A DNA stretch of 64,000 bases. Origin: Clostridiales bacterium (GTDB lineage Bacteria > Bacillota > Clostridia > Lachnospirales > Lachnospiraceae). The stretch covers positions 1 through 64,000 of the forward strand of contig JAJQAA010000034.1 of the NCBI GenBank assembly GCA_021204045.1, given 5' to 3'. The position numbers and the translations under genes are program-made. Shown here piece by piece: positions 2,824-64,000 of the stretch. The first letter of the stretch is position 1, and every line of letters starts with the position of its first letter. Under the pieces are notes generated by a model that saw nothing but the letters and a program-made list of their open reading frames with translations, ran no database searches and had not been told where the DNA came from.

Positions 2824-3696
2824 ATGAATTCTGATTCGCAGAACAGCCGAAGATCCCTGCTTGCCCTGGCGGCCTCCATGGTAATATTCGGCACGGTTCC
2901 TTTGATGCTCCGGTATATTTTATTGTCATCTCCGGTAATTGCCTTTGCTCGCAGCCTGTTGGGAGCTTCTTTTCTGCTGCTGATCATGCTGATTACCCGC
3001 CAACGTTTTGCTTCGGCATACTTGCGTAAGAATTGCGGGCGTATTATGATCTCCGGCATTTTGCTCGGGATCAATTGGATCGCCTTATTTGAGTCCTTTA
3101 ATTATACAACGGTAGCAGTCGCTACATTATGTGACAACCTTGCACCTGTTTTTGTCGTACTTGTCTCGCCGATCATTTTCAAAGAAAAACTGACAAAAAC
3201 AAAGCTACTATGTGTGGCGGCTTCTGCCGTGGGCATTCTGTTGGTTTCAGGAAAAATTGGCGGAAATGTGACGGGCAGCCCCAGAGGTATCATTTTCGCA
3301 CTATGTTCCGCGATCCTTTATGCGCTTGTTATTATTTTAGGCAAGACGATCGTGGGCGTGCCTGCCCATTCCAGAACCGTATTGCAATTAGCTACCTGCT
3401 CATTGGCGCTGCTTCCGTATGTTCTGCTCACGGAAAAAACAGGGACGGTACAGATTGGTAGGCTGGGGCTTGCTATGCTTGTGGTATTGGGACTTCTTCA
3501 TACGGGAGTAGCTTATGCGCTATACTTCGGCAGCATGGACGGAATAAAAGCCCAAACATTTGCATTGATGAGCTATATAGGGCCATGTGTTACCTTGTTT
3601 GTCAGCGCAGTGGTGCTGAAAGAGCCGATGACCCTACCGCAGGCTATCGGCGCAGTGTTTATTTTTAGCGCGGTATTTTTCAGCAACAAAGAATGA
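2824..3696 (+). CDS. EamA/DMT-superfamily membrane transporter
   Basis: A 290-residue membrane protein with about ten hydrophobic segments arranged as two EamA repeats, the pattern of drug/metabolite exporters. A start at 2824 is preferred because CAGGAGGG precedes it by 9 nt; an upstream in-frame ATG at 2800 has no site. The substrate cannot be read from sequence. It lies 45 bp before an Asp/Glu racemase-like gene on the same strand, which suggests amino-acid or metabolite efflux. Codon use here is clearly more AT-rich than in uxaC, which marks the start of a compositionally different block running to about 9.2 kb. Confidence 0.85.
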   Translation: MNSDSQNSRRSLLALAASMVIFGTVPLMLRYILLSSPVIAFARSLLGASFLLLIMLITRQRFASAYLRKNCGRIMISGILLGINWIALFESFNYTTVAVATLCDNLAPVFVVLVSPIIFKEKLTKTKLLCVAASAVGILLVSGKIGGNVTGSPRGIIFALCSAILYALVIILGKTIVGVPAHSRTVLQLATCSLALLPYVLLTEKTGTVQIGRLGLAMLVVLGLLHTGVAYALYFGSMDGIKAQTFALMSYIGPCVTLFVSAVVLKEPMTLPQAIGAVFIFSAVFFSNKE

Positions 3697-3741
3697 CAAC
3701 GGAGCAAACGCGATTGTTATATCAAATTGAGGAGGTATTTC

Positions 3742-4455
3742 ATGAAAATACAAAAAGGATTTTCCCATTATGGGCAGGAGATCGGTATTCTTGTAAACGC
3801 TTCCGTATCCCCTCGTGTGCCGGGTGATGCAGGACACGCAGCGAGCTTTGGCTACCCTGTACAGTATCAGATCACGGGTACCAGCTTTATGGATATGGTC
3901 GAGGGAGCGCCCGATGCACGGGAGAAGCTGATCAGAGCTGCCCGCACCTTGAAGAACGCGGGCTGCCGGGGAATCGTGGCAGACTGCGGGCTGATGTCAC
4001 TCTACCAAAATGATGTCGCTCGTGAAGTGGGGATTCCCTTTGTGGGGGCCTCGCTCATTCAGATCCCGATCGTATGGCATATGGTCGGGTGCAACGGAAC
4101 AATCGGCATCATTACCGGACATTCGGATTTTTTAAAGCCATGCCACCTCTGCAGCTCCGGCTGGACTGATGAAATCCCATTGGCGATCGAGGGAATGCAG
4201 ACGTGCGCACATTTTCATGAGATCGTGATTTGCGGAGGGATGAATCTGAATACGAGCCAGATGTGTGATGAAGTCGTTGATGCGGCGCTGGCATTAAAGC
4301 GGCACTATGCTGATTTGAAGGCCGTTATTTTGGAATGTTCCAACCTTGCCACCTACAGCCGCGCGGTAGCCGAAGCCATCGAACTACCGGTATTTGATAC
4401 CATCAGCGCCGCCAATCTTTTACAGTATGGTCTTTGCCCGCCCCAATATATCTGA
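3742..4455 (+). CDS. Aspartate/glutamate racemase-family protein
   Basis: 237 residues. The Asp/Glu/hydantoin racemase fold uses two cysteines as acid and base. Here C82 in VADCGLM and C199 in ILECSNL sit at the expected places in the two half-domains. Racemization of an amino acid or related compound is likely, but several relatives are decarboxylases or isomerases, so the exact reaction is open. I chose the ATG at 3742 because AGGAGG at 3730-3735 precedes it. It shares direction and close spacing with the EamA transporter, so the two may form an operon. A bidirectional terminator separates it from the convergent Crp-type regulator. Confidence 0.8.
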   Translation: MKIQKGFSHYGQEIGILVNASVSPRVPGDAGHAASFGYPVQYQITGTSFMDMVEGAPDAREKLIRAARTLKNAGCRGIVADCGLMSLYQNDVAREVGIPFVGASLIQIPIVWHMVGCNGTIGIITGHSDFLKPCHLCSSGWTDEIPLAIEGMQTCAHFHEIVICGGMNLNTSQMCDEVVDAALALKRHYADLKAVILECSNLATYSRAVAEAIELPVFDTISAANLLQYGLCPPQYI

Positions 4456-4480
4456 ATCTTTCGCAGAATCGACCATCATG

Positions 4481-4520
4481 AAAAATCCCCGGACCTGAAA
4501 AACAGGCCCGGGGATTTTTT
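4481..4520. terminator. Bidirectional terminator between convergent genes
   Basis: AAAAATCCCCGG and its partner CCGGGGATTTTTT form a GC-rich stem flanked by A- and T-runs. It can serve both the racemase-like gene and the opposing Crp-type regulator. Confidence 0.9.
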
Positions 4521-4528
4521 CATATACG

Positions 4529-5239
4529 CTAAAAGTCAATGATATCCTCCGCCATATTCATCAATTGATCAATGGAGACGACAATATAACGGCTATCTTC
4601 CTTTTTCAGAATTTTTTGCCGCTGAAAGACCAGCAAAACATTATTTGCCGTCACACGGCTGATCCCTACAATAGCAGCAATGTCACTACAGGTAAAACGC
4701 AAATTAATATGTATTCCGTCAGGACACACCTTCCCGTATCTGTCGCATAGGTACAAAAGGTATTTTGCAACGCGAACCTCAGCGGTATCAAAGCTCAGAT
4801 TGGCCTGCTGCACAATCAACATTTGTGATATGCGGGCTTCATATTGCAGCATTAAATCAGCGAGAGTACGGTCACTGTGAAACAGGGATTGCAGTTCCTT
4901 GCTGGGGATCCGAACAACCTCTGTGGGGACAATAGCTATTGCGGTCATACTATGCGGCTTGGAGAGAATACAGGAAATTTCTCCGACCAATGCGCCGGGA
5001 CAGGCGATATACAGCTGCTTCTCCTGCCCATCCTTGCTAAAGACGCTGTGACGAATGCGGCCACTTATAATGACAAACGTATCCCGAAACGGATCGCCCG
5101 CCGAAAAGAGGATGGCTTCCGCAGCGTACCTTACGATGGGACGGTTTTTGACGAGAATATCCCATATTTGAATATCCGCGCCGATCCACGGGGAACTGAT
5201 GTTACCCCAATCATAACTGTCAATGAACATATCCGCCAT
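4529..5239 (-). CDS. Crp/Fnr-family transcriptional regulator
   Basis: 236 residues. A cyclic-nucleotide-binding-like beta-roll covers about residues 35-130, and a Crp-type winged helix (SDIAAIVGISRVTANNVL) lies near residues 180-205. No cysteine cluster for an Fnr iron-sulfur centre is seen, so a small-molecule effector is likelier. A GAGG site lies about 9 nt ahead of the ATG. The gene is divergent from ridA and the downstream PLP-enzyme genes, whose promoter has an extended -10 but no good -35, as expected for an activator-dependent promoter. Control of that operon is inferred. Confidence 0.88.
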   Translation of the reverse strand: MADMFIDSYDWGNISSPWIGADIQIWDILVKNRPIVRYAAEAILFSAGDPFRDTFVIISGRIRHSVFSKDGQEKQLYIACPGALVGEISCILSKPHSMTAIAIVPTEVVRIPSKELQSLFHSDRTLADLMLQYEARISQMLIVQQANLSFDTAEVRVAKYLLYLCDRYGKVCPDGIHINLRFTCSDIAAIVGISRVTANNVLLVFQRQKILKKEDSRYIVVSIDQLMNMAEDIIDF

Positions 5240-5364
5240 TCGTTATATCCTCATCTGTTTCCGCAAAAACTGTTCATTCTGTCCGTCTTTCAGCAGGTTT
5301 TTCCCTGAGTATACATGAAATTGCCCAAAATGTAAAGTATTTAGCAGAATGTTTTGATGACATT

Positions 5365-5373
5365 TGCTATACT
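5365..5373 (+). promoter_or_regulatory. Extended -10 promoter for the ridA operon
   Basis: TGCTATACT is an extended -10 element 55 nt ahead of ridA, in the gap shared with the divergent Crp-type gene. No convincing -35 lies 17 nt upstream. I could not identify a clean Crp-type palindrome by eye. Confidence 0.5.
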
Positions 5374-5427
5374 GCAAGGGAAAGAAAGCGAAAAGCTTTT
5401 AAAAAATATCAATGAAAAGGAGAATGA

Positions 5428-5895
5428 ATGGTTATGTCTAAAGTAGAAGAACGACTGACGGCCGCAGGGGTTACAATTCCGGATGTTCCTATTCCATTGG
5501 CGGCCTATGTGCCGGGCCTGATCTCCGACAATCTGGTGTATACGTCGGGGCAGCTTCCCATGGCTAATGGGCAATTGGCGTTCAAAGGGCGTTTGGGTGA
5601 AAACGCGACCATGGAGGATGGTTATGCAGCGGCTAAGCAGTGCGCCTGCAATTGCCTGGGTGTGGTGAAGTCGCTGATCGGTGATCTTGACCGGGTGACC
5701 CGTGTAGTCAAGGTAGTGGGGTTTGTCAATAGCTCTGCTGATTTTGAAGCACAGCCCAAGGTCATCAACGGCGCTTCCGAGCTTCTGCAGCTGGCATTCG
5801 GCGATATTGGCGCACATGCCCGCAGCGCTGTAGGCGTCGCCGCACTTCCTTTAGGTGCTATGTGCGAGGTGGAGATCGTAGTAGAATTTGCGTAA
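5428..5895 (+). CDS. RidA/YjgF-family enamine/imine deaminase
   Basis: A 155-residue RidA-fold protein. RidA proteins hydrolyse reactive enamine or imine intermediates released by PLP enzymes. This member is of the longer variety with an N-terminal VEERLTAAGVTIPDVPIP and a C-terminal GAMCEVEIVVEFA. The arginine and glutamate typical of active RidA are not both obvious, so catalysis is likely but unproven. The start may be 5428 or 5434; AAAGGAG at 5417-5422 precedes both. The next gene encodes a PLP enzyme, which fits the family's usual partnership. Confidence 0.88.
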   Translation: MVMSKVEERLTAAGVTIPDVPIPLAAYVPGLISDNLVYTSGQLPMANGQLAFKGRLGENATMEDGYAAAKQCACNCLGVVKSLIGDLDRVTRVVKVVGFVNSSADFEAQPKVINGASELLQLAFGDIGAHARSAVGVAALPLGAMCEVEIVVEFA

Positions 5896-5967
5896 TGCAC
5901 ATAAAACACACGAATTTACGGATGCATTATAATGAAAAATTATTATAATTTGAAAAGGAGAATTATC

Positions 5968-7218
5968 ATGAGTAACATTGATTGGAAAAAGATCCGCAGC
6001 GAAGAGTTCCCCGTTCTGGACACCATGACGTTCCTGGATGCTGCCTGTGTCAGCTTTGCACCCCAGCGTTCCGTTCGTGCTGTCAAGGCTTTTGCCGATA
6101 TGACCGCTACGCAGGAAGAGGCAAATTCCAGCGCTCACCACATTGCAATGGATAGTCTGCGCGGCAAAGCATACGACGAGGCATGCAAGCTGTTCAATGC
6201 CGATCCCGAAGAGATCGCTCTGGTGGAGAGCACCTCTCATGGCCTGAATATTGCCGCTTCCGGCATTGAATTGCATGATGGCGACAGTGTGATCACCACC
6301 AACCTGGAATTCATTCAGGTGGCACTGCCTTGGTGCCTGATGCGTAAGGAAAAGAAGATTGACATCCGTGTCTGCAAAACACCGGATAATCGCTTCCGTG
6401 CATCTGACTTTGCCGCTTTGGCAGATGAGACCACCAAGATTTTGGTGATGTCCACCGTCGAGTGGTGCAACGGTTGGGCATCTGATTTGACAGAAATCGG
6501 CGCGTGGTGCCAGGAGAAAGGTATTATGTTCGTGGTTGATGCCGTTCAACAGATGGGCGTTACCAAGATTGATACTAAGAAGTGCCATATTGACCTGCTG
6601 GTCGCCGGTGGTCACAAATGGGCCAACAGCCCCTATGGTACCGGTGTGATGTACGTCAACAAAAACAGCCTCAATAAGATCAAGCAGAGTTACGGTGGCT
6701 ACTTGAATACCAGCGTTCCGGAAGGCGGATGGGGTGCCTACTGGGAGAAGCTGGACTCTCAGGCTGTAAGCGATTGGACATTCCCCAACACTGCCCGCAA
6801 GTATGAGATCGGCGGCACCACAAACTATACCGGCTGCATTGCCTTGGGTGAGTCCTTGGGTCTGGTCAACGAAATCGGCATCGAGAACATTCAGGAGCAT
6901 GTTTGGGAGCTGGGCGAGTATTGCATGGATCAAATCGAGAGCATCGGCGGTTATGTGGTAACACACCGCGACCCGGAACGTCGCGCCGGCATTATTATTG
7001 CCCGCCTGTATAACGATATCGAGATCGATCGTCGCATTTTGAAGGATCTGCATGCCCGCCGGATATTCATTGCACAGCGCTTTACCGATAATGTGGGCGG
7101 CTTCCGTATCAGTTGCAACTGGTTCAATGTCAAGGAGGATATTGACACCTTGATCGCAGCAATGAAGGAAATTATCGCTTTGATCGACAAGGAGCCGGAT
7201 TATAAAGATCATCACTGA
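5968..7218 (+). CDS. Class V aminotransferase-fold PLP enzyme
   Basis: 416 residues of the aminotransferase class V / cysteine desulfurase-like family. The PLP lysine is K217 in AGGHKWANSPYG, and D191 in VVDAVQ should hold the pyridine nitrogen. It lacks the active-site cysteine loop of true NifS/IscS proteins and resembles the isopenicillin-N-epimerase-like branch, so it is probably a lyase, epimerase or transaminase on an amino acid. A start at 5968 is preferred because AAAGGAG precedes it; an ATG at 5932 is in frame but has no site. It is cotranscribed with ridA. Confidence 0.85.
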   Translation: MSNIDWKKIRSEEFPVLDTMTFLDAACVSFAPQRSVRAVKAFADMTATQEEANSSAHHIAMDSLRGKAYDEACKLFNADPEEIALVESTSHGLNIAASGIELHDGDSVITTNLEFIQVALPWCLMRKEKKIDIRVCKTPDNRFRASDFAALADETTKILVMSTVEWCNGWASDLTEIGAWCQEKGIMFVVDAVQQMGVTKIDTKKCHIDLLVAGGHKWANSPYGTGVMYVNKNSLNKIKQSYGGYLNTSVPEGGWGAYWEKLDSQAVSDWTFPNTARKYEIGGTTNYTGCIALGESLGLVNEIGIENIQEHVWELGEYCMDQIESIGGYVVTHRDPERRAGIIIARLYNDIEIDRRILKDLHARRIFIAQRFTDNVGGFRISCNWFNVKEDIDTLIAAMKEIIALIDKEPDYKDHH

Positions 7219-52496: not shown

Positions 52497-54095
52497 ATGC
52501 CAGTTAAGTACGTCTTCGTCACCGGCGGTGTCGTATCCGGCCTTGGCAAAGGCATTACCGCCGCATCCCTGGGCCGTCTGCTTAAAGCGCGCGGCTACAA
52601 GGTCACGATGCAGAAATTTGATCCCTACATCAACATCGACCCCGGTACCATGAACCCGGTGCAGCACGGCGAGGTGTTTGTGACCGACGACGGGGCTGAG
52701 ACTGACCTGGATCTCGGCCATTATGAGCGTTTTATCGACGAGAGCCTGACCAAAAATTCCAACGTCACCACCGGCAAGGTCTACTGGACCGTCTTACAAA
52801 AGGAGCGCCGCGGCGACTTCGGCGGCGGCACGGTACAGGTCATCCCTCATATTACCAATGAAATTAAGAGCCGTTTTCATCGCAATTTCTCGACTACGGA
52901 AACAGAAATCGCGATCATTGAAGTCGGCGGCACCGTCGGCGATATTGAGAGCCAGCCTTTCCTGGAGGCCATTCGCCAGTTCCAGCATGAGGTCGGCCAT
53001 GAGAACGCGATCATCATCCATGTCACGCTGATTCCCTACCTCAAGGCTTCCGGTGAACTTAAAACCAAACCCACCCAGGCCAGCGTCAAGGATCTGCAGG
53101 GGATGGGCATCTGGCCGGATATCATTGTCTGCCGCAGCGAACATCCGCTCGATACCGCGCTTCGCAGCAAGATCGCCCTGTTCTGTAATGTACCCAAGGA
53201 TCATGTCCTGCAAAACCTGGATGTCGAGGTTCTCTACGAAGCGCCGCTGGCCATGGAGGAGGAGCATCTCGCGCAGGTCGCCTGCGAATGCCTGCGTCTT
53301 GACTGCCCGGAACCCGATCTTGGCGAATGGCGCGCGATGATCGACGACTGGAAACATCCGCTGACCGAGGTGGAAATCGCCCTGGTAGGCAAATATATCC
53401 AGCTCCACGACGCCTACATATCAGTCGTAGAAGCACTCAAGTACGGCGGAGTCGCCAACCGCACCTCCGTCCATATCCGCTGGATTGATTCCGAAACCGT
53501 CACCCCTGATAACGTCGGCGGACTTCTCTTCGGCGTCAAGGGCGTGCTGGTGCCGGGCGGTTTTGGCGACCGCGGCATCGACGGCAAGATCTGCGCGATC
53601 CAGTGGGCGCGGGAAAACAACATCCCCTTCCTTGGCATCTGTCTCGGCATGCAGCTCGCGATCGTTGAGTTCGCGCGCCATGTCATTGGCATAGAAGACG
53701 CGCACAGCATCGAATTTGACTCGGCCACCGCGCACCCGGTCATCCATCTGATGCCGGATCAGGACGGCGTTGAGGATATCGGCGGCACGCTGCGGCTCGG
53801 CTCCTACCCCTGCGTTCTTGACCCGGAATCCAGAGCCTACGAGGTCTACGGATACAGCCCCATCCATGAGCGCCACCGCCACCGCTACGAGGTCAACAAC
53901 GATTTCCGCAACGCCCTCACTGAAAACGGCATGCGTCTGTGCGGCATGTCCCCCGACAACCGCATCATCGAGATGATCGAGATTCCGGATCATCCGTGGT
54001 TTATCGGCACGCAGGCGCACCCGGAGCTCAAATCCCGGCCCAACCGCCCGCATCCGCTGTTCGCCGGATTTATCGGTGCGGCGCTGAAGGTGTAA
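52497..54095 (+). CDS. pyrG: CTP synthase
   Basis: 532 residues. It makes CTP from UTP, ATP and glutamine. The amidoligase half (residues 1-270) has [17 protein letters not shown], and the glutaminase half has the catalytic cysteine in GICLGMQ. Length is normal, and AAAGGAGG precedes the ATG. Bases 53623-53918 recur downstream as a separate fragment. An intrinsic terminator follows. Confidence 0.97.
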
Positions 54096-54237: not shown

Positions 54238-55248
54238 CTACTCATCATCAACTGCCGTTTCTGCCAACTCAATATACTCTTTCAATTTCTTCTGAAGCAA
54301 TTTCTTATCTATCAGCTTTAAATTGTACTCTGACACCATTGTCGGGGAAAGACTGCGGCTCAGGGCAAATTCAACTACCTCGTCATCCTTGCTTGCACAG
54401 AGGATGACCCCAACACTCGGATTTTCATTTTCCTTCTTCACTTCACGGTCAAGCGCTTCCAGGTAAAGGTTCATCTTTCCTACATATTCCGGCTTAAATT
54501 CACCTATCTTCAATTCAAATGCCGCAAGACAGGAAAGTCCTCTGTGGTAAAACAGCAGATCAATATAATAATCGTGTTTCCCGACCTGCACACGGTATTC
54601 CTCTCCAATAAACGTGAAATCCTTGCCTATTTCAAGTATGAAGTCCTTCAAATTTCGTATAATGGATTTTTGCAGGTCATACTCTGACGCTGTATCTGGA
54701 ACATCAAGAAAATCGAGAACATAATTATCAAGAAAAACATTACCGGTTGCTTTTCTTGCTTCTTCAACGGCTGGCGGTAATGGCTTTTGTGACAGCATAT
54801 ACCTTTCATAGTAGCCGCTGTCAATCTGCCTTGCCAGCTCCCTTGCGCTGTATTTTTCTTTGATGCACATACTCATATAGAAAATGCGCTCGTCCATCGT
54901 CTTACAGGCCGACATGATTTTCAAATGATTCGACCAGCTCAATTGTGTCAACAGCGTTGACACTTTTTCCTCGTCCTTGTATAGCTCATAAAATTGCTTC
55001 ATTCTATAAAGTCCACGGCGATTGAAGCCTTTCAGATCAGGATAGTTTTCAGCAAAGAAATCTGCCAGTTTCTGCACAAAAGCGTCGCCATACTCAGCGT
55101 TTTCAGATTGCTTGCTGATGTATTCGCCTATGTCACGATACATCAAAATCAGTTCTTCATTTATCTTGCGGTATGCTCGTTCCCTTGCAGACTCTATGAT
55201 CGCGACAACCTTTTGAAACTGCCCGCCATAAAGCATCAGTTCACCCAT
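54238..55248 (-). CDS. YhcG-type PDDEXK nuclease (DUF1016)
   Basis: 336 residues. The N-terminal DUF1016 helical domain (residues 1-170) is followed by a PD-(D/E)XK nuclease domain with DYYIDLLFYHRGLSCLAAFELK, whose D, E and K are the active residues. Such proteins occur in mobile regions and next to restriction systems; the job is not established. It stands alone here, with no restriction genes nearby. The ATG at 55248 has no strong site. Confidence 0.85.
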   Translation of the reverse strand: MGELMLYGGQFQKVVAIIESARERAYRKINEELILMYRDIGEYISKQSENAEYGDAFVQKLADFFAENYPDLKGFNRRGLYRMKQFYELYKDEEKVSTLLTQLSWSNHLKIMSACKTMDERIFYMSMCIKEKYSARELARQIDSGYYERYMLSQKPLPPAVEEARKATGNVFLDNYVLDFLDVPDTASEYDLQKSIIRNLKDFILEIGKDFTFIGEEYRVQVGKHDYYIDLLFYHRGLSCLAAFELKIGEFKPEYVGKMNLYLEALDREVKKENENPSVGVILCASKDDEVVEFALSRSLSPTMVSEYNLKLIDKKLLQKKLKEYIELAETAVDDE

Positions 55249-56171: not shown

Positions 56172-56467
56172 TCCCCTTCCTTGGTATCTGTCTCGGCATG
56201 CAGCTCGCGATCGTTGAGTTCGCGCGCCATGTCATTGGCATAGAAGACGCGCACAGCATCGAATTTGACTCGGCCACCGCGCACCCGGTCATCCATCTGA
56301 TGCCGGATCAGGACGGCGTCGAGGATATCGGCGGCACGCTGCGGCTCGGCTCCTACCCCTGCGTCCTTGATCCGGAGTCCAGAGCCTACGGGGTCTACGG
56401 ATACAGCCCCATCCATGAACGCCACCGCCACCGCTACGAAGTCAACAACGATTTCCGCAACGCCCTC
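56172..56467 (+). pseudogene. Second copy of an internal pyrG segment
   Basis: 296 bp match pyrG 53623-53918 with eight differences (about 97 percent identity). It begins within the glutaminase domain at the catalytic GICLGMQ and ends at NNDFRNAL. Seven of the differences are synonymous and one changes E to G. It is open within a longer frame but has no start of its own and lacks the rest of CTP synthase. Confidence 0.92.
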
Positions 56468-59374: not shown

Positions 59375-59998
59375 ATGAAAGCTGGTGAACCTGTGAATAT
59401 TCGCGAACTTGCACGGCAAGTCATTACAGAAAACGGCGGCATTGCCAAGGCCGCTGATTTCGTGAATGCCGGAATACGGGCAGCCGATGTCGTAAATATG
59501 TGCAATGCAGGATTCCTTAACCGTGTACGTCATGGCTATTATCAGCTTGCCGGGCAGGACATTTCTTCCGAAGAGCAACTGCTCGCCACACTGATTCCGA
59601 AAGGGATTGTGTGCGTTGAGTCTGCTCTTTTCCACTATGGATATACTGACTTCATTCCCCGCAAATGGTCAATCGCCGTTCCACGGTCTATGTCGAGGAA
59701 AAAACTGGAAGTGGATGTTCTTGCGTTGCAGCCCTATTATGTTCAGTCTGAGATCTATGAGCTGGGTAAGACTACTGATGATTTTAACAATGTTACGCTT
59801 TCTGTATATGACCGAGAGCGAACCATTTGCGATTGCTTCAAATATCGTTCAAGACTCGACAATGAACTTTTTTGCAGGACTCTTAATGCTTATGCCAATG
59901 ACACAAAGAAGAATCTGCAAAACCTATCTATATACGCGAAAAGGCTCAGAGTGCATAAAAAACTTACAGAACTGATGGAGGTATTGCTCAATGACTGA
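59375..59998 (+). CDS. AbiEi-type antitoxin (type IV toxin-antitoxin)
   Basis: 207 residues. An N-terminal wHTH (NIRELARQVITENGGIAKAADFVNAGI) binds the operon's DNA in this family, and the C-terminal domain (residues 75-205, SALFHYGYTDFIPRKWSIAVPR) matches AbiEi. It overlaps the toxin gene by 8 bp. The start may be the ATG at 59375 or a GTG at 59393 that gives VNIRELA. AT-rich composition suggests transfer. Confidence 0.88.
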   Translation: MKAGEPVNIRELARQVITENGGIAKAADFVNAGIRAADVVNMCNAGFLNRVRHGYYQLAGQDISSEEQLLATLIPKGIVCVESALFHYGYTDFIPRKWSIAVPRSMSRKKLEVDVLALQPYYVQSEIYELGKTTDDFNNVTLSVYDRERTICDCFKYRSRLDNELFCRTLNAYANDTKKNLQNLSIYAKRLRVHKKLTELMEVLLND

Positions 59999-60902
59999 TA
60001 TGGCTGCATCTGTGCTGGCAAGGCTTAAAAATAAGGCAAGAGAAAGTGGCCGTAGTTATCAGCTCTGTATGCAACTCTTTTGCCAGGAGGAATTCTTACG
60101 TCGCCTGGAAAAATCGGAATATGCAGAAAACCTGGTACTGAAGGGTGGCTTATTCATTTATTCCGTCACAAATTTTGACAGCCGGGTAACTATAGATGTA
60201 GACTTTCTTCTTCAGAAGGTTCCAAATACGCCGGAACAGTTGAGGATCGTGCTGGAGGGAATCATAGCAACGCCTACCGACAATGATTTTATTACCTTTG
60301 AAATCAAGAATATCGCTCCTATCACCGTTGCAAAGAAGTATGCCGGGATTGGTGCTTCTCTGGTAGCACATATCAAGAACACACGCACCCCCGTTAATAT
60401 CGATTTCGGCGTGGGAGACGTAATCGTACCAAAATCGGAAAGGCGGAAAATTCCTACCCAGCTTGCGGATTTTCCAGCACCAACTGTCAATACATATTCC
60501 CTGGAAACCACGATTGCTGAGAAGTTGGATGCCATCCTCACCCTGATGGAGTTCTCCAGCCGGATGAAAGATTACTATGACATCTACTATCTTGCCAACA
60601 AGTTTGATTTTAACGGCGAAATACTAACGGAAGCTCTAAGAAAGACCTTTGAAAATCGTGGACATAATTTCACCGTAGAACAGTTTAAACAAGTTATATC
60701 GTTTGACGGTGATAAAGCAATGCAAAAGAAATGGAAAGCATTCTGTCGGAAAATTGATACGAAAACGGATAATTTCAGCACTGTTTTGAAGGTTATTCAG
60801 GCATTTTTGACAGAGCCAGTCTCTGCTGCCGTCGATGGTTACAAATTTACAAACCAATGGGTGTCAGACAGTGGTAAGTGGTCAAATATGGAAGAAAGGT
60901 AA
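59991..60902 (+). CDS. AbiEii-type nucleotidyltransferase toxin
   Basis: 303 residues of the AbiEii/AbiGii family. LVLKGGLFIYSV is the GS-like motif and TIDVDFLL the two metal aspartates of the nucleotidyltransferase fold. PVNIDFGVGD and the KDYYDIYYLA segment are also conserved. Toxins of this family modify tRNA 3' ends or GTP-dependent targets and stop growth; with AbiEi it gives abortive phage defence. GGAGG precedes the ATG, which overlaps the antitoxin. Confidence 0.9.
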   Translation: MTDMAASVLARLKNKARESGRSYQLCMQLFCQEEFLRRLEKSEYAENLVLKGGLFIYSVTNFDSRVTIDVDFLLQKVPNTPEQLRIVLEGIIATPTDNDFITFEIKNIAPITVAKKYAGIGASLVAHIKNTRTPVNIDFGVGDVIVPKSERRKIPTQLADFPAPTVNTYSLETTIAEKLDAILTLMEFSSRMKDYYDIYYLANKFDFNGEILTEALRKTFENRGHNFTVEQFKQVISFDGDKAMQKKWKAFCRKIDTKTDNFSTVLKVIQAFLTEPVSAAVDGYKFTNQWVSDSGKWSNMEER

Positions 60903-61011: not shown

Positions 61012-63693
61012 TCACTGAATCCGCTTAGCACTCGCGACCGAATAAAGGAATTTCGGGTTCTCAAAGCTGGAGGCCCACCGGTTCTTTACCAGCTCAAACT
61101 CGTATTCACCGTACACTTCCTCGTAAACACCACTCAGAATCTGCGTCCGCGCCGTACAGGTTCCGTCCGGATGCTCAATCCAGGAGCTGATCCTGGCCGC
61201 TTCATCACCGCGGTCGCCGACCACGAAATAAAATACGCCATCTTCTACCATTATACCCTCATTTCTAGCTTCTTCCTCGGATATCTCGCCGTCATAATCG
61301 GCGAACATCGCCGAGGCATATTCCCGGACAGTTTCCTTCTCCACCGGATAACAACCTCTTATTTCGCCGAATGCCTCTGCATAGTGTTCCGTATACTTAT
61401 CCCAGAAATCATATGGATAAAAATTAACCATTATTCTCATCACACTCCAGAAATAATCGGTGTCATCGGGATCATAACTACTGTAATATAACTCATAGGC
61501 AATTGAATCCATCGGTGCCTGCATATACTGCTGTTCCTCCGTGAGATTGTCCACGTCCACTTCCACGTCCTCACCCGCGTATTCCTCGGATTCTTCCACG
61601 AAATCACTTTCGGAATCTTCCTTGCTCTCAAGAGGCCAAACCACCTCGCCGTTTTTCATGATCACACCATCGCCGGGAAACATATCCTCTGTCCCTCCAT
61701 CATGCTGCCCGACATTCGACGTATTCCAGAATAAGATTGTATCGGTTGCTTTGGTTTTCGTCAAAATTCTTCTGTTAACATAGCTGACTCCTTCATCATC
61801 CGGAATATAATACTCTCGATCTTTTTTATGTTTCTCAACTTCTTCTGCATTAATATGAAAAACCAGATTCTGCTTTCCGTCTAACTTTTCCAGCCACTCT
61901 GAATCTAACAAATATTCCATTCTTCCAGAATCGCTTTTTTGATGGAGAAGTGAAGATAAGAGCGTTGATTCTCCCACCACAATATCAACTTCAAATTCTC
62001 CCGTTGGAATCTGGTTTTTATAAGCACCGGAAGTCGTCGTTATCAAACTAAATTTATCGGGATATTCTATAAAATACCACTGTTGCGTTTCAACATTCCC
62101 AACGATCGCTCCCATATCGTAATCAGTCTTTCTTATCTCGTATTGAAATCCCGGGCCAGCTTCAAAGCCTATCCAATCGTGATAGAAGTGATAAACTTCC
62201 TTTGTGCTTAATATACTTCCATTGGGGACGTTGTCAATAAAATCTCCAAAATACGCAGTTATAGTGAATGTAGGTATATAATGATAAGGATCATCTAAGA
62301 CATTTGGATTACTTGTGTGAATCGTCACCCATTCCTCTTCATCATAAAACAACTGTTCACTGCATATTTTCAGCACCAGCTTCCGACCGTCCAAATCCGG
62401 GCTCAAATTCTCCCCATCGAATATGACCAGCTGATTCGGCACATGATTGTGTTCTACCGCGTACAAGGTATAAAAATCTGAGCGAATCGCAAGAAGCATC
62501 TCATTCGCGTCCTCCGCCCCCATCGCCTGGTAGAGCCGTTTTAACGCCGCACGCTCCTCCTCGGTGAGCTCCAGAAGCGATTCGGAAGCATCGGCAACAT
62601 TCTCCGCCTCCTGACTCATATCCGTCTGAAATTCCGTTTCATCAGCCAATGTTTCCTCGATAGCGCTTTCCGGAACCGACTGATTTCTGAGGGCATAAAC
62701 GCCCCCGACCGCTCCGCCGCCCGTCAGGCATACTGCCGCCGCCACGGCAACACCCTTTGCTCCGATTGCCTTGCCAAGAATGGTAAGCCCCGTTTTCCCG
62801 GCGACACCCGCCGCTGCTTCCGCGGTGGCCGCGGATGCTCCCGCTGCGCCGGAGCCAGCCGAAGCCGCGCCAGTGGCAGTCGTTGCCGCGCCGGAACCAA
62901 CTGAAGCCGTGCCGGAGGCAGCCGCTGACATACCAGAGCCAGCCGTTGCCGCACCGGAGCCAGCCGAAGCCGCCCCCGCGGATGCACTTCCCGCCGCCGC
63001 GCTCCCGGCTGCCGTGCCTCCGGCGATGGCAGCGCCAAACGGCGCGGCCACAGCCGCCATCGCGTCCTGATGGAACATCCAAACAAGGAAGGGTACAAAG
63101 GGTACGCAGTAGAGTTTGGTTCCTTTTTTCTCCAGCTCGAGCACCTTCGCCTTGAGCGTCTTACGTCCATAATTCAGGCGGCTCTTTACCGTCCCTTCGG
63201 AGCACTCCATGATCGCGGCGATCTGCTTTACCGGGCAATCCTCCAGATAATGCAGCACAATAGCGATTCTCTGCTCTTCCGGCAGTCCGTCGATCATCGC
63301 CTGCACCAGACGTCTCGTCTCGCTGTAATCTACCGTGGCTTCCGGGGAAAACCGATCGCTCTCGTCCTCAAAATCGATCGCTGCGTCATCCTCATCCTCC
63401 GAAGCCATCTGGGAAAACAGGATCGGTTTTTTCTTTTTCAGATAGTTCTTGCTGTTGTTGACTACGATCGTATTCAGCCAGCCCTGGAATTTCCCCGCAT
63501 CCTCCAGCATATCCAGGCTGTTGAATGCCTTTATGTACGAATCCTGCAATATATCCTGCGCCTGATCCTCGTCCTTCACCAGCTGCAGCGCCAGGTAAAA
63601 GGCCCGGCCGCTGGTCCGCTCATACAGCTCAGCCATCGCCTGCTGATCGCCCTTCCTGGCCGCAAGGACCAGCTCCATCATCGACTTTTCCAT
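61012..63693 (-). CDS. ECF sigma factor fused to a membrane helix and a large extracytoplasmic domain
   Basis: 893 residues. Region 2 (about 8-88, including DEDQAQDILQDSYIKAF) and region 4 (about 125-182, LPEEQRIAIVLHYLEDCPVKQ) make a complete ECF sigma factor. Residues 195-210 are hydrophobic (PFVPFLVWMF), residues 240-284 are a G-A-A-S-A-G-S heptad repeat, and residues 313-335 form one membrane helix. The remaining 555 residues should be outside; they hold no domain I know and end in an acidic, aromatic-rich part. It follows a lipoprotein gene by 18 bp. A membrane-tethered sigma that senses outside conditions is inferred. Confidence 0.85.
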   Translation of the reverse strand: MEKSMMELVLAARKGDQQAMAELYERTSGRAFYLALQLVKDEDQAQDILQDSYIKAFNSLDMLEDAGKFQGWLNTIVVNNSKNYLKKKKPILFSQMASEDEDDAAIDFEDESDRFSPEATVDYSETRRLVQAMIDGLPEEQRIAIVLHYLEDCPVKQIAAIMECSEGTVKSRLNYGRKTLKAKVLELEKKGTKLYCVPFVPFLVWMFHQDAMAAVAAPFGAAIAGGTAAGSAAAGSASAGAASAGSGAATAGSGMSAAASGTASVGSGAATTATGAASAGSGAAGASAATAEAAAGVAGKTGLTILGKAIGAKGVAVAAAVCLTGGGAVGGVYALRNQSVPESAIEETLADETEFQTDMSQEAENVADASESLLELTEEERAALKRLYQAMGAEDANEMLLAIRSDFYTLYAVEHNHVPNQLVIFDGENLSPDLDGRKLVLKICSEQLFYDEEEWVTIHTSNPNVLDDPYHYIPTFTITAYFGDFIDNVPNGSILSTKEVYHFYHDWIGFEAGPGFQYEIRKTDYDMGAIVGNVETQQWYFIEYPDKFSLITTTSGAYKNQIPTGEFEVDIVVGESTLLSSLLHQKSDSGRMEYLLDSEWLEKLDGKQNLVFHINAEEVEKHKKDREYYIPDDEGVSYVNRRILTKTKATDTILFWNTSNVGQHDGGTEDMFPGDGVIMKNGEVVWPLESKEDSESDFVEESEEYAGEDVEVDVDNLTEEQQYMQAPMDSIAYELYYSSYDPDDTDYFWSVMRIMVNFYPYDFWDKYTEHYAEAFGEIRGCYPVEKETVREYASAMFADYDGEISEEEARNEGIMVEDGVFYFVVGDRGDEAARISSWIEHPDGTCTARTQILSGVYEEVYGEYEFELVKNRWASSFENPKFLYSVASAKRIQ
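62846..62971. repeat. Six 21-bp tandem repeats in the sigma-factor linker
   Basis: Units of 21 bp such as GCGCCGGAGCCAGCCGAAGCC begin at 62846, 62867, 62888, 62909, 62930 and 62951. On the coding strand each adds one heptad of the Gly/Ala/Ser linker. Length change by whole units would keep the frame. Confidence 0.85.
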
Positions 63694-63711: not shown

Positions 63712-63897
63712 CTATTTTCCGGTTGACAATGATTTCATACAATCCTTGCAGATATTGATATTCTCGCCCAGTACCTGCTTTGTCTCACACACCTTTTCCT
63801 GACCGCAAAAATCACATTTCGCAGTCTTCCCGCCGCAGGCCACCATGTTCGCCGTGAGCATCGCCACCAGCATCCATCTTATCATATTCTTTTTCAT
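63712..63897 (-). CDS. Small zinc-ribbon lipoprotein before the sigma-factor gene
   Basis: 61 residues. A signal peptide ends at the lipobox-like MVAC (C21). The mature part has a CxxC pair (C28, C31) and a second CxxC pair (C50, C53), plus C37, spaced like a four-cysteine zinc ribbon of the ClpX type (CDFCGQEK and ICKDCMKS). CGGAGG precedes the ATG. It is the first gene of the sigma operon. It could sense metal or redox state or regulate its neighbour; this is inference. Confidence 0.75.
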   Translation of the reverse strand: MKKNMIRWMLVAMLTANMVACGGKTAKCDFCGQEKVCETKQVLGENINICKDCMKSLSTGK

Positions 63898-63942
63898 GTT
63901 CTTTCCTCCGAAATAATTTTAATTTATTTTTCCTTACACCTA

Positions 63943-63971
63943 TATGACAATCAAACAACGTTTCCGGTTTT
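63943..63971 (-). promoter_or_regulatory. ECF-like promoter of the lipoprotein/sigma operon
   Basis: Minus strand: AAAACC (63971-63966), 17 nt, GTCATA (63948-63943), then GTGTAAGGAAAAA. It matches the promoter at 59227-59255 in boxes, spacing and downstream sequence, as expected if the encoded sigma factor controls both. Confidence 0.7.
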
Positions 63972-64000
63972 ATCCTTTTGAAAAAATTTTGTCATTTTGT

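Follow-up and report, generated by a model that had tools for sequence, protein, structure and literature searches.

How does an ECF sigma factor work when it shares one reading frame with a membrane helix and a very large C-terminal part? The question is raised by a gene near the end of the window, by which we mean the whole 64,000-nucleotide stretch analyzed here, the first part of a 127 kb contig of a Lachnospiraceae genome. The original prediction for this gene described a membrane-tethered ECF sigma factor with an extracytoplasmic domain. We divide the encoded protein as follows.

61012..63693, minus strand: gene for the predicted tethered ECF sigma factor, 893 aa, a single open frame with an ATG start
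63127..63693, minus strand: sigma domain, residues 1-189, with region 2 at 23-89 and region 4 at 128-180 (Pfam)
63058..63126, minus strand: juxtamembrane (JM) motif, residues 190-212; the family's commonest residues are approximately LEKKGTKLYSLAPIPFLLLLLR (family alignment statistics)
62788..63057, minus strand: low-complexity Ala/Gly/Ser/Thr linker, residues 213-302 (sequence)
62689..62787, minus strand: Gly-rich predicted membrane helix, residues ~303-335 (hydropathy and family statistics)
61981..62655, minus strand: middle module of the putative ectodomain, residues 347-571, 25% similar to a protein from an Enterocloster MAG (L257)
61015..61569, minus strand: C-terminal module of the putative ectodomain, residues 709-893, also found on predicted lipoproteins (homology, AlphaFold)

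ECF regions 2 and 4 lie, as predicted, in one 893-aa frame. Pfam matches the protein with Sigma70_r2 (37.6 bits, cut-off 24) and Sigma70_r4_2 (60.1 bits, cut-off 25.7), the NCBIfam sigma70-ECF model fits it with 101.4 bits (cut-off 42.9), and no region 1.1 or 3 is listed, which is the domain content of an ECF (group 4) factor. The C-terminal part of approximately 555 residues (338-893) is acidic, with a net charge of -76, and contains three Cys. A profile search of residues 334-893 gave no NCBIfam match and a sole Pfam match that is meaningless (E 0.54), in agreement with the expectation that this part carries no recognized domain. An AlphaFold model of residues 690-893 has a pLDDT of 90.6 and a pTM of 0.85. 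Membrane helices were assigned by hydropathy, without a trained predictor. The hydropathy maximum, at residues ~303-335, is the strongest membrane stretch, and a second, shorter hydrophobic stretch lies shortly past region 4 (19-mer from residue 211, 1.47). A linker had been predicted as well, and it is present, although as low-complexity Ala/Gly/Ser/Thr sequence and not as a repeat.

The same plan recurs widely. We gathered 137 further proteins that share it from Lachnospiraceae, Oscillospiraceae, and other Clostridia; the resulting collection of 138 was itself selected by JM motif and membrane helix. A search model, A2, comprising region 4 plus the JM motif was applied to 397 genomes of the taxonomic family, with at most 14 candidates scored per genome, so that its counts are lower bounds. 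Among the matches listed, 63 (counted by hand) have E values up to 1.6e-15, and 62 of these are frames of 369-1003 aa, found in 47 of the 397 genomes. One match, from G086, is a 223-aa ordinary ECF factor and was left out of the tethered set; matches weaker than E 1.6e-15 are mostly ordinary ECFs. Set 1 combines the 62 strong matches with one protein from a separate search (G010) and eight weaker matches with long frames, 71 in all, and sigma domain, JM motif, and membrane helix are present together in 64 of them. Seven of the eight weaker long-frame matches were rejected by the motif and helix rule, and the one retained (L113) has an ectodomain of 38 residues.

Named genomes, among them Merdimonas faecis, Pseudobutyrivibrio xylanivorans, and Faecalibacterium sp. 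An121, yielded at least 291 relatives, of which 80 loci were retained as set 2; a tethered member is present in 75 of these. Here 76 of 83 model matches are tethered. The seven left uncounted are two that leave the locus, two with weaker helices, one short frame, and two ordinary ECFs. Two of the 76 are identical to set-1 proteins, and their removal leaves 74, or 73 after the ORF non-overlap rule. Because the plan recurs in 64 of 71 and in 76 of 83 model matches, a chance or assembly fusion, the objection raised along with the original prediction, is excluded.

The window protein carries the full family plan of region 4, JM motif, linker, one membrane helix, and ectodomain. Linkers in the family are 20-200 residues long (median 62), and A, G, S, and T make up 58% of them on average. 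In its own genome the window protein is the sole tethered copy, and one further match was obtained, to an ordinary frame of 216 aa with 24% identity. In a tree of 64 tethered and 18 ordinary factors, a single change separates the two kinds, but on a branch with a support of 51 and with the JM segment among the columns used, and the window protein falls within a 36-row group with a support of 94. Some members (L004, L005, and L006) have an N-terminal zinc-ribbon-like CxxC...CxxC segment ahead of region 2.

The sigma part is constant across the family and the ectodomain is not. In an all-versus-all comparison of 136 proteins with an ectodomain of at least 60 residues, the window protein among them, E 1e-5 is reached by 9165 of 9180 pairs of sigma parts but by just 336 of 9180 pairs of ectodomains. 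The sigma parts fall into a single homology cluster and the ectodomains into 60, of which 46 have one member. The closest relative found for the window protein, L257, is 69% identical to it over residues 1-224 and is its sole ectodomain neighbor in this comparison. The L257 ectodomain matches window residues 347-571 with 25% identity (E 2e-16 without composition adjustment), a match that is not significant in a composition-adjusted comparison. On one contig (C7 of G407, loci L096 and L097), four tethered paralogues have sigma parts 85-99.5% identical and ectodomains 23-34% identical; for two of the four, the values are 99.5% and 32%. A separate observation concerns L098, where the ectodomain of a tethered sigma factor (3667-6522) shares 49% identity, over 308 residues, with the product of the adjacent upstream gene, a protein that starts with a lipoprotein-like signal. 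This likeness suggests exchange.

The side of the membrane on which the C-terminal part lies can be judged from its relatives and from charge. Residues ~709-893 have relatives at 15 places in 14 of 295 genomes (own included); within the genus, 2 of 24 genomes match, the own one and a second in which the frame runs open up to the contig start. Inspection by eye of 13 further relatives, with the window and the contig-end frame excluded, revealed a lipobox in 11 and a Sec signal followed by choline-binding repeats (Pfam) in one; one leaves the fetched DNA. Since the last ~185 residues of the window protein are thus found on predicted lipoproteins, that part most likely lies outside. Pfam scans of 64 ectodomains detected WG repeats in three, BspA LRR in two, FG-GAP in two, SH3_3 in one, and YARHG in one, with no match at E 0.01 in at least 49 of the 64; two weak ones are to zinc ribbons. 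The segment preceding the helix has a higher net charge than the segment following it in 117 of 138 proteins, the two are equal in 10, and the order is reversed in 11; of 136 ectodomains, 135 are acidic. Lipoprotein homology, surface-type repeats, flanking charges that follow the positive-inside rule, and acidic ectodomains strongly suggest that the N terminus is inside and the C terminus outside, as the predicted membrane tether and outside domain would require.

A promoter-like site accompanies the family. Upstream of the sigma genes, AAAC-N18-GTC(A/T) occurs in 11 of 63 regions and other spacings in 0-2, while shuffled sequences gave a mean of 0.38 and at most 3 (200 rounds). The longer pattern TAAAAC-N18-GTC(A/T) was derived on set 1 and confirmed unchanged on set 2. 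At spacing 18, it precedes 10 of the 64 sigma genes in set 1 and 11 of its 363 other ORFs (ten other spacings summed: 2 and 3) and 19 of 73 sigma genes and 32 of 486 other ORFs in set 2 (other spacings: 1 and 1). Over whole loci, the counts are 23 versus 3 in reversed controls for set 1 and 62 versus 7 for set 2. Lipoproteins, assigned by a lipobox rule, make up 14 of the 32 site-bearing non-sigma ORFs in set 2, versus 32 of the 454 others (Fisher p 9e-8). The full pattern stands before none of 18 ordinary ECF genes and AAC-N18-GTC before six of them, so that the spacing is generic to the ECFs of these bacteria and it is the TAAAAC box that distinguishes the family. Looser searches carry no such signal: across entire set-1 loci the short pattern is no commoner than its reversed control (49 sites, 50 controls), and in 12 whole genomes controls exceed sites in 10. 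A CATCTA variant of the site occurs in three loci. As 42 of 62 set-1 loci are without a site and the strict form precedes just 19 of the 73 set-2 sigma genes, some members may recognize different promoters.

Three copies of the site surround the sigma gene of the window, with the following neighbors.

63712..63897, minus strand: predicted lipoprotein of 61 aa (lipobox by eye) with a four-Cys zinc-finger-like motif; its stop lies 18 bp before the sigma ATG
63934..63972, minus strand: promoter-like site TAAAACC...GTCATA...GTGTAA, 37-75 bp upstream of the lipoprotein start codon
59218..59256, minus strand: second copy of the site, 64-102 bp upstream of the transglutaminase start codon
57286..59154, minus strand: predicted target of 622 aa, secreted, with choline-binding repeats and a transglutaminase-like core
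contig 67460-67498, same strand, beyond the window: third copy of the site, 59-97 bp upstream of a run of envelope genes

Given the 18-bp gap, lipoprotein and sigma factor probably form one operon. The run behind the third copy codes for a membrane protein (252 aa), a lipoprotein (378 aa), another membrane protein (145 aa), and a protein with choline-binding repeats (256 aa); the two sets together contain 17 loci with a relative of the 378-aa lipoprotein, two of these loci being one contig. Across the 2.75 Mb genome, WAAAAC-N18-GTCWWA has eight sites versus nine in reversed controls, but three of the eight are clustered at the sigma gene, on one strand and within 8.3 kb, and have a longer sequence in common. 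An extended pattern, built from these three sites themselves, found no fourth copy and no reversed control in this genome at up to three mismatches. The site ahead of the lipoprotein–sigma operon strongly suggests autoregulation, and the tethered sigma factor probably controls the adjacent surface-protein genes.

Other features of this region are recorded here for completeness. The four-Cys motif of the 61-aa lipoprotein resembles the ClpX-like C4 zinc finger (Pfam E 8.6e-4, below cut-off) and would apparently be extracellular. An AbiE-type pair at 59375-60902, made up of a toxin gene of AbiEii type (Pfam E 2e-47) and a preceding ORF with no Pfam match, separates the sigma operon from the transglutaminase target. 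A 296-bp piece of pyrG (CTP synthase) at 53623-53918 is repeated with 97% identity ~2.5 kb downstream, at 56172-56467, and a YhcG-type nuclease gene (54238-55248) lies between the repeats, perhaps as a mark of insertion or recombination.

The view that no system of this form had been described goes too far, since two such groups, ECF52 and ECF243, appear in the literature. SCO4117 of Streptomyces coelicolor (ECF52) combines an ECF sigma factor, a membrane region, and an outer domain in one chain; its sigma-only form is active in development and boosts its own expression, and it is presumed to be released by proteolysis (PMC5826349). Members of ECF52 carry a zinc finger after the sigma part as well as a Pro-rich region and a domain that binds carbohydrate; they are reported to be exclusive to Actinobacteria (PMC5826349). 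The window protein shares with them the membrane helix after the sigma domain; unlike them, the present family occurs in Clostridia. There is no Pfam zinc finger between its sigma domain and helix, where Cys 196 is the only Cys (residues 189-303), and residues 334-893 have no Pfam or NCBIfam match to a carbohydrate-binding domain, although a distant one could escape these profiles. IutY of Pseudomonas putida (ECF243) is a sigma factor fused to a membrane-bound regulatory part and freed by Prc and RseP; it contains its own anti-sigma factor and serves a siderophore system (PMC8999054). Here, too, sigma is joined to a membrane-bound part in a single protein, with no Pfam or NCBIfam anti-sigma family and with only the JM motif and the low-complexity linker between sigma domain and helix. 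A cysteine-rich C-terminal extension, as reported for ECF288 of Blautia producta (PMC8999054), is not what three Cys in residues 338-893 amount to.

Two-protein systems offer further parallels. Clostridium thermocellum has several paralogous SigI/RsgI devices with differing sensors, and RseP cuts within the helix (PMC12203970). The present family likewise includes paralogous devices with different sensors, whereas sigma and anti-sigma are separate proteins in SigI/RsgI. Sigma-I is, moreover, not an ECF factor. In Bacillus subtilis, the ECF factor SigV is held by RsiV, a membrane protein whose outer part is a receptor, and cleavage by signal peptidase and then RasP destroys this anti-sigma factor and frees sigma (PMC4183432). 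The window protein resembles this pair in having an ECF sigma factor and a membrane part with an outer portion, unlike it unites them in one chain, and has no RsiV-type domain among its Pfam and NCBIfam matches. Fusions of sigma factor, membrane region, and ectodomain are therefore known already, and the tethered clostridial family lacks features that define ECF52, ECF243, and ECF288 as the cited papers describe them. Our literature search returned, among the matches listed, no account of a clostridial tethered family, and the main ECF classification may list such a group.

Taken together, tether, ectodomain, and site suggest a receptor on one chain that would switch on its own operon and neighboring surface genes. 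We think it probable that the protein is a one-protein transmembrane signaling device, in which an outside event frees sigma to act on its own operon and on adjacent secreted-protein genes; architecture, family, changing ectodomains, and the shared site with its local placement can be read directly from the genomes. The sigma domain would lie in the cytoplasm, with the single helix as anchor and the modular acidic ectodomain outside. In the resting state, sigma would be kept off its promoters by the tether, to which the conserved JM motif perhaps contributes. The ectodomain would sense some presumed external signal, for which the original prediction suggested wall or protein damage, and an event there would lead to a cut near or inside the Gly-rich helix, probably by a site-1 protease first and then by an RseP-type site-2 protease. 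The freed sigma domain would take RNA polymerase to TAAAAC-N18-GTC(A/T) before the lipoprotein–sigma operon and the adjacent secreted-protein genes. The genome encodes one M50 protease, a family that all 14 control genomes have as well, and the presence of this site-2 protease gene makes proteolytic release possible. GG occurs in 54% of the 138 tether helices versus 7.5% of 412 control helices, a rough control that includes spurious ORFs. With an M50 protease, GG-containing helices, and the precedents of IutY and SCO4117, regulated intramembrane proteolysis would be the likeliest trigger of release.

ToxR/CadC-kind regulators work while membrane-bound, and an uncut sigma factor could do the same if the ectodomain changed state or oligomerized and the tethered sigma brought RNA polymerase to nearby promoters. 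Predicted targets at most 8.3 kb from the gene, on its own island, would be in keeping with a tethered factor, and linkers of 20-200 residues (median 62) would provide the reach. A fragment cut in an Ala-rich helix might also undergo degradation by ClpXP, as RsgI fragments do, which would counteract release (PMC12203970). The Gly-rich helices and the IutY and SCO4117 precedents nevertheless favor release, and we regard action from the membrane as unlikely, although a serious rival.

Topology would change if the JM stretch spanned the membrane: with this stretch and the later helix both inserted, the Ala/Gly linker would lie outside and the large C-terminal part in the cytoplasm. The JM stretch is indeed signal-peptide-like, being basic with ~11 hydrophobic residues (best 11-mer mean 2.25), and A/V/S-x-A occurs at offset 20 in 31 of 138 proteins. 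Its median 19-mer hydropathy is only 1.13, versus 2.16 for the helix, and basic residues cluster before the later helix; these features, the C-terminal module on predicted lipoproteins, and the surface-type repeats of some members make two spans improbable. We find it scarcely credible that the tether is a mere localization device or a fusion relic with no sensory role and that expression alone sets activity. Extreme ectodomain variability and the lack of a known ligand would fit such a relic, but the 138 collected proteins have full-length frames (in a collection chosen by motif and helix), the JM motif is conserved, and the putative self-regulatory site is shared with envelope-protein genes.

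If signaling by a freed, single-chain sigma factor is correct, common Clostridia would gain an architecture described for Actinobacteria and Pseudomonas, and in the genome of the window an island of surface-protein genes would be tied to one regulator. The recognizable promoter would make targets predictable from sequence, and the union of sensor and sigma in one polypeptide, with sensors that vary, would make receptor–ligand pairing and engineered sensing directly testable. More tentatively, and with somewhat more doubt than conviction, we propose that single-chain transmembrane sigma receptors form a large class in Clostridia, whose members keep one sigma chassis and one promoter language while ectodomains are swapped module-wise with secreted lipoproteins. 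Arrays such as the four paralogues on contig C7 of G407 would then be many-input, one-output gates for surface proteins.
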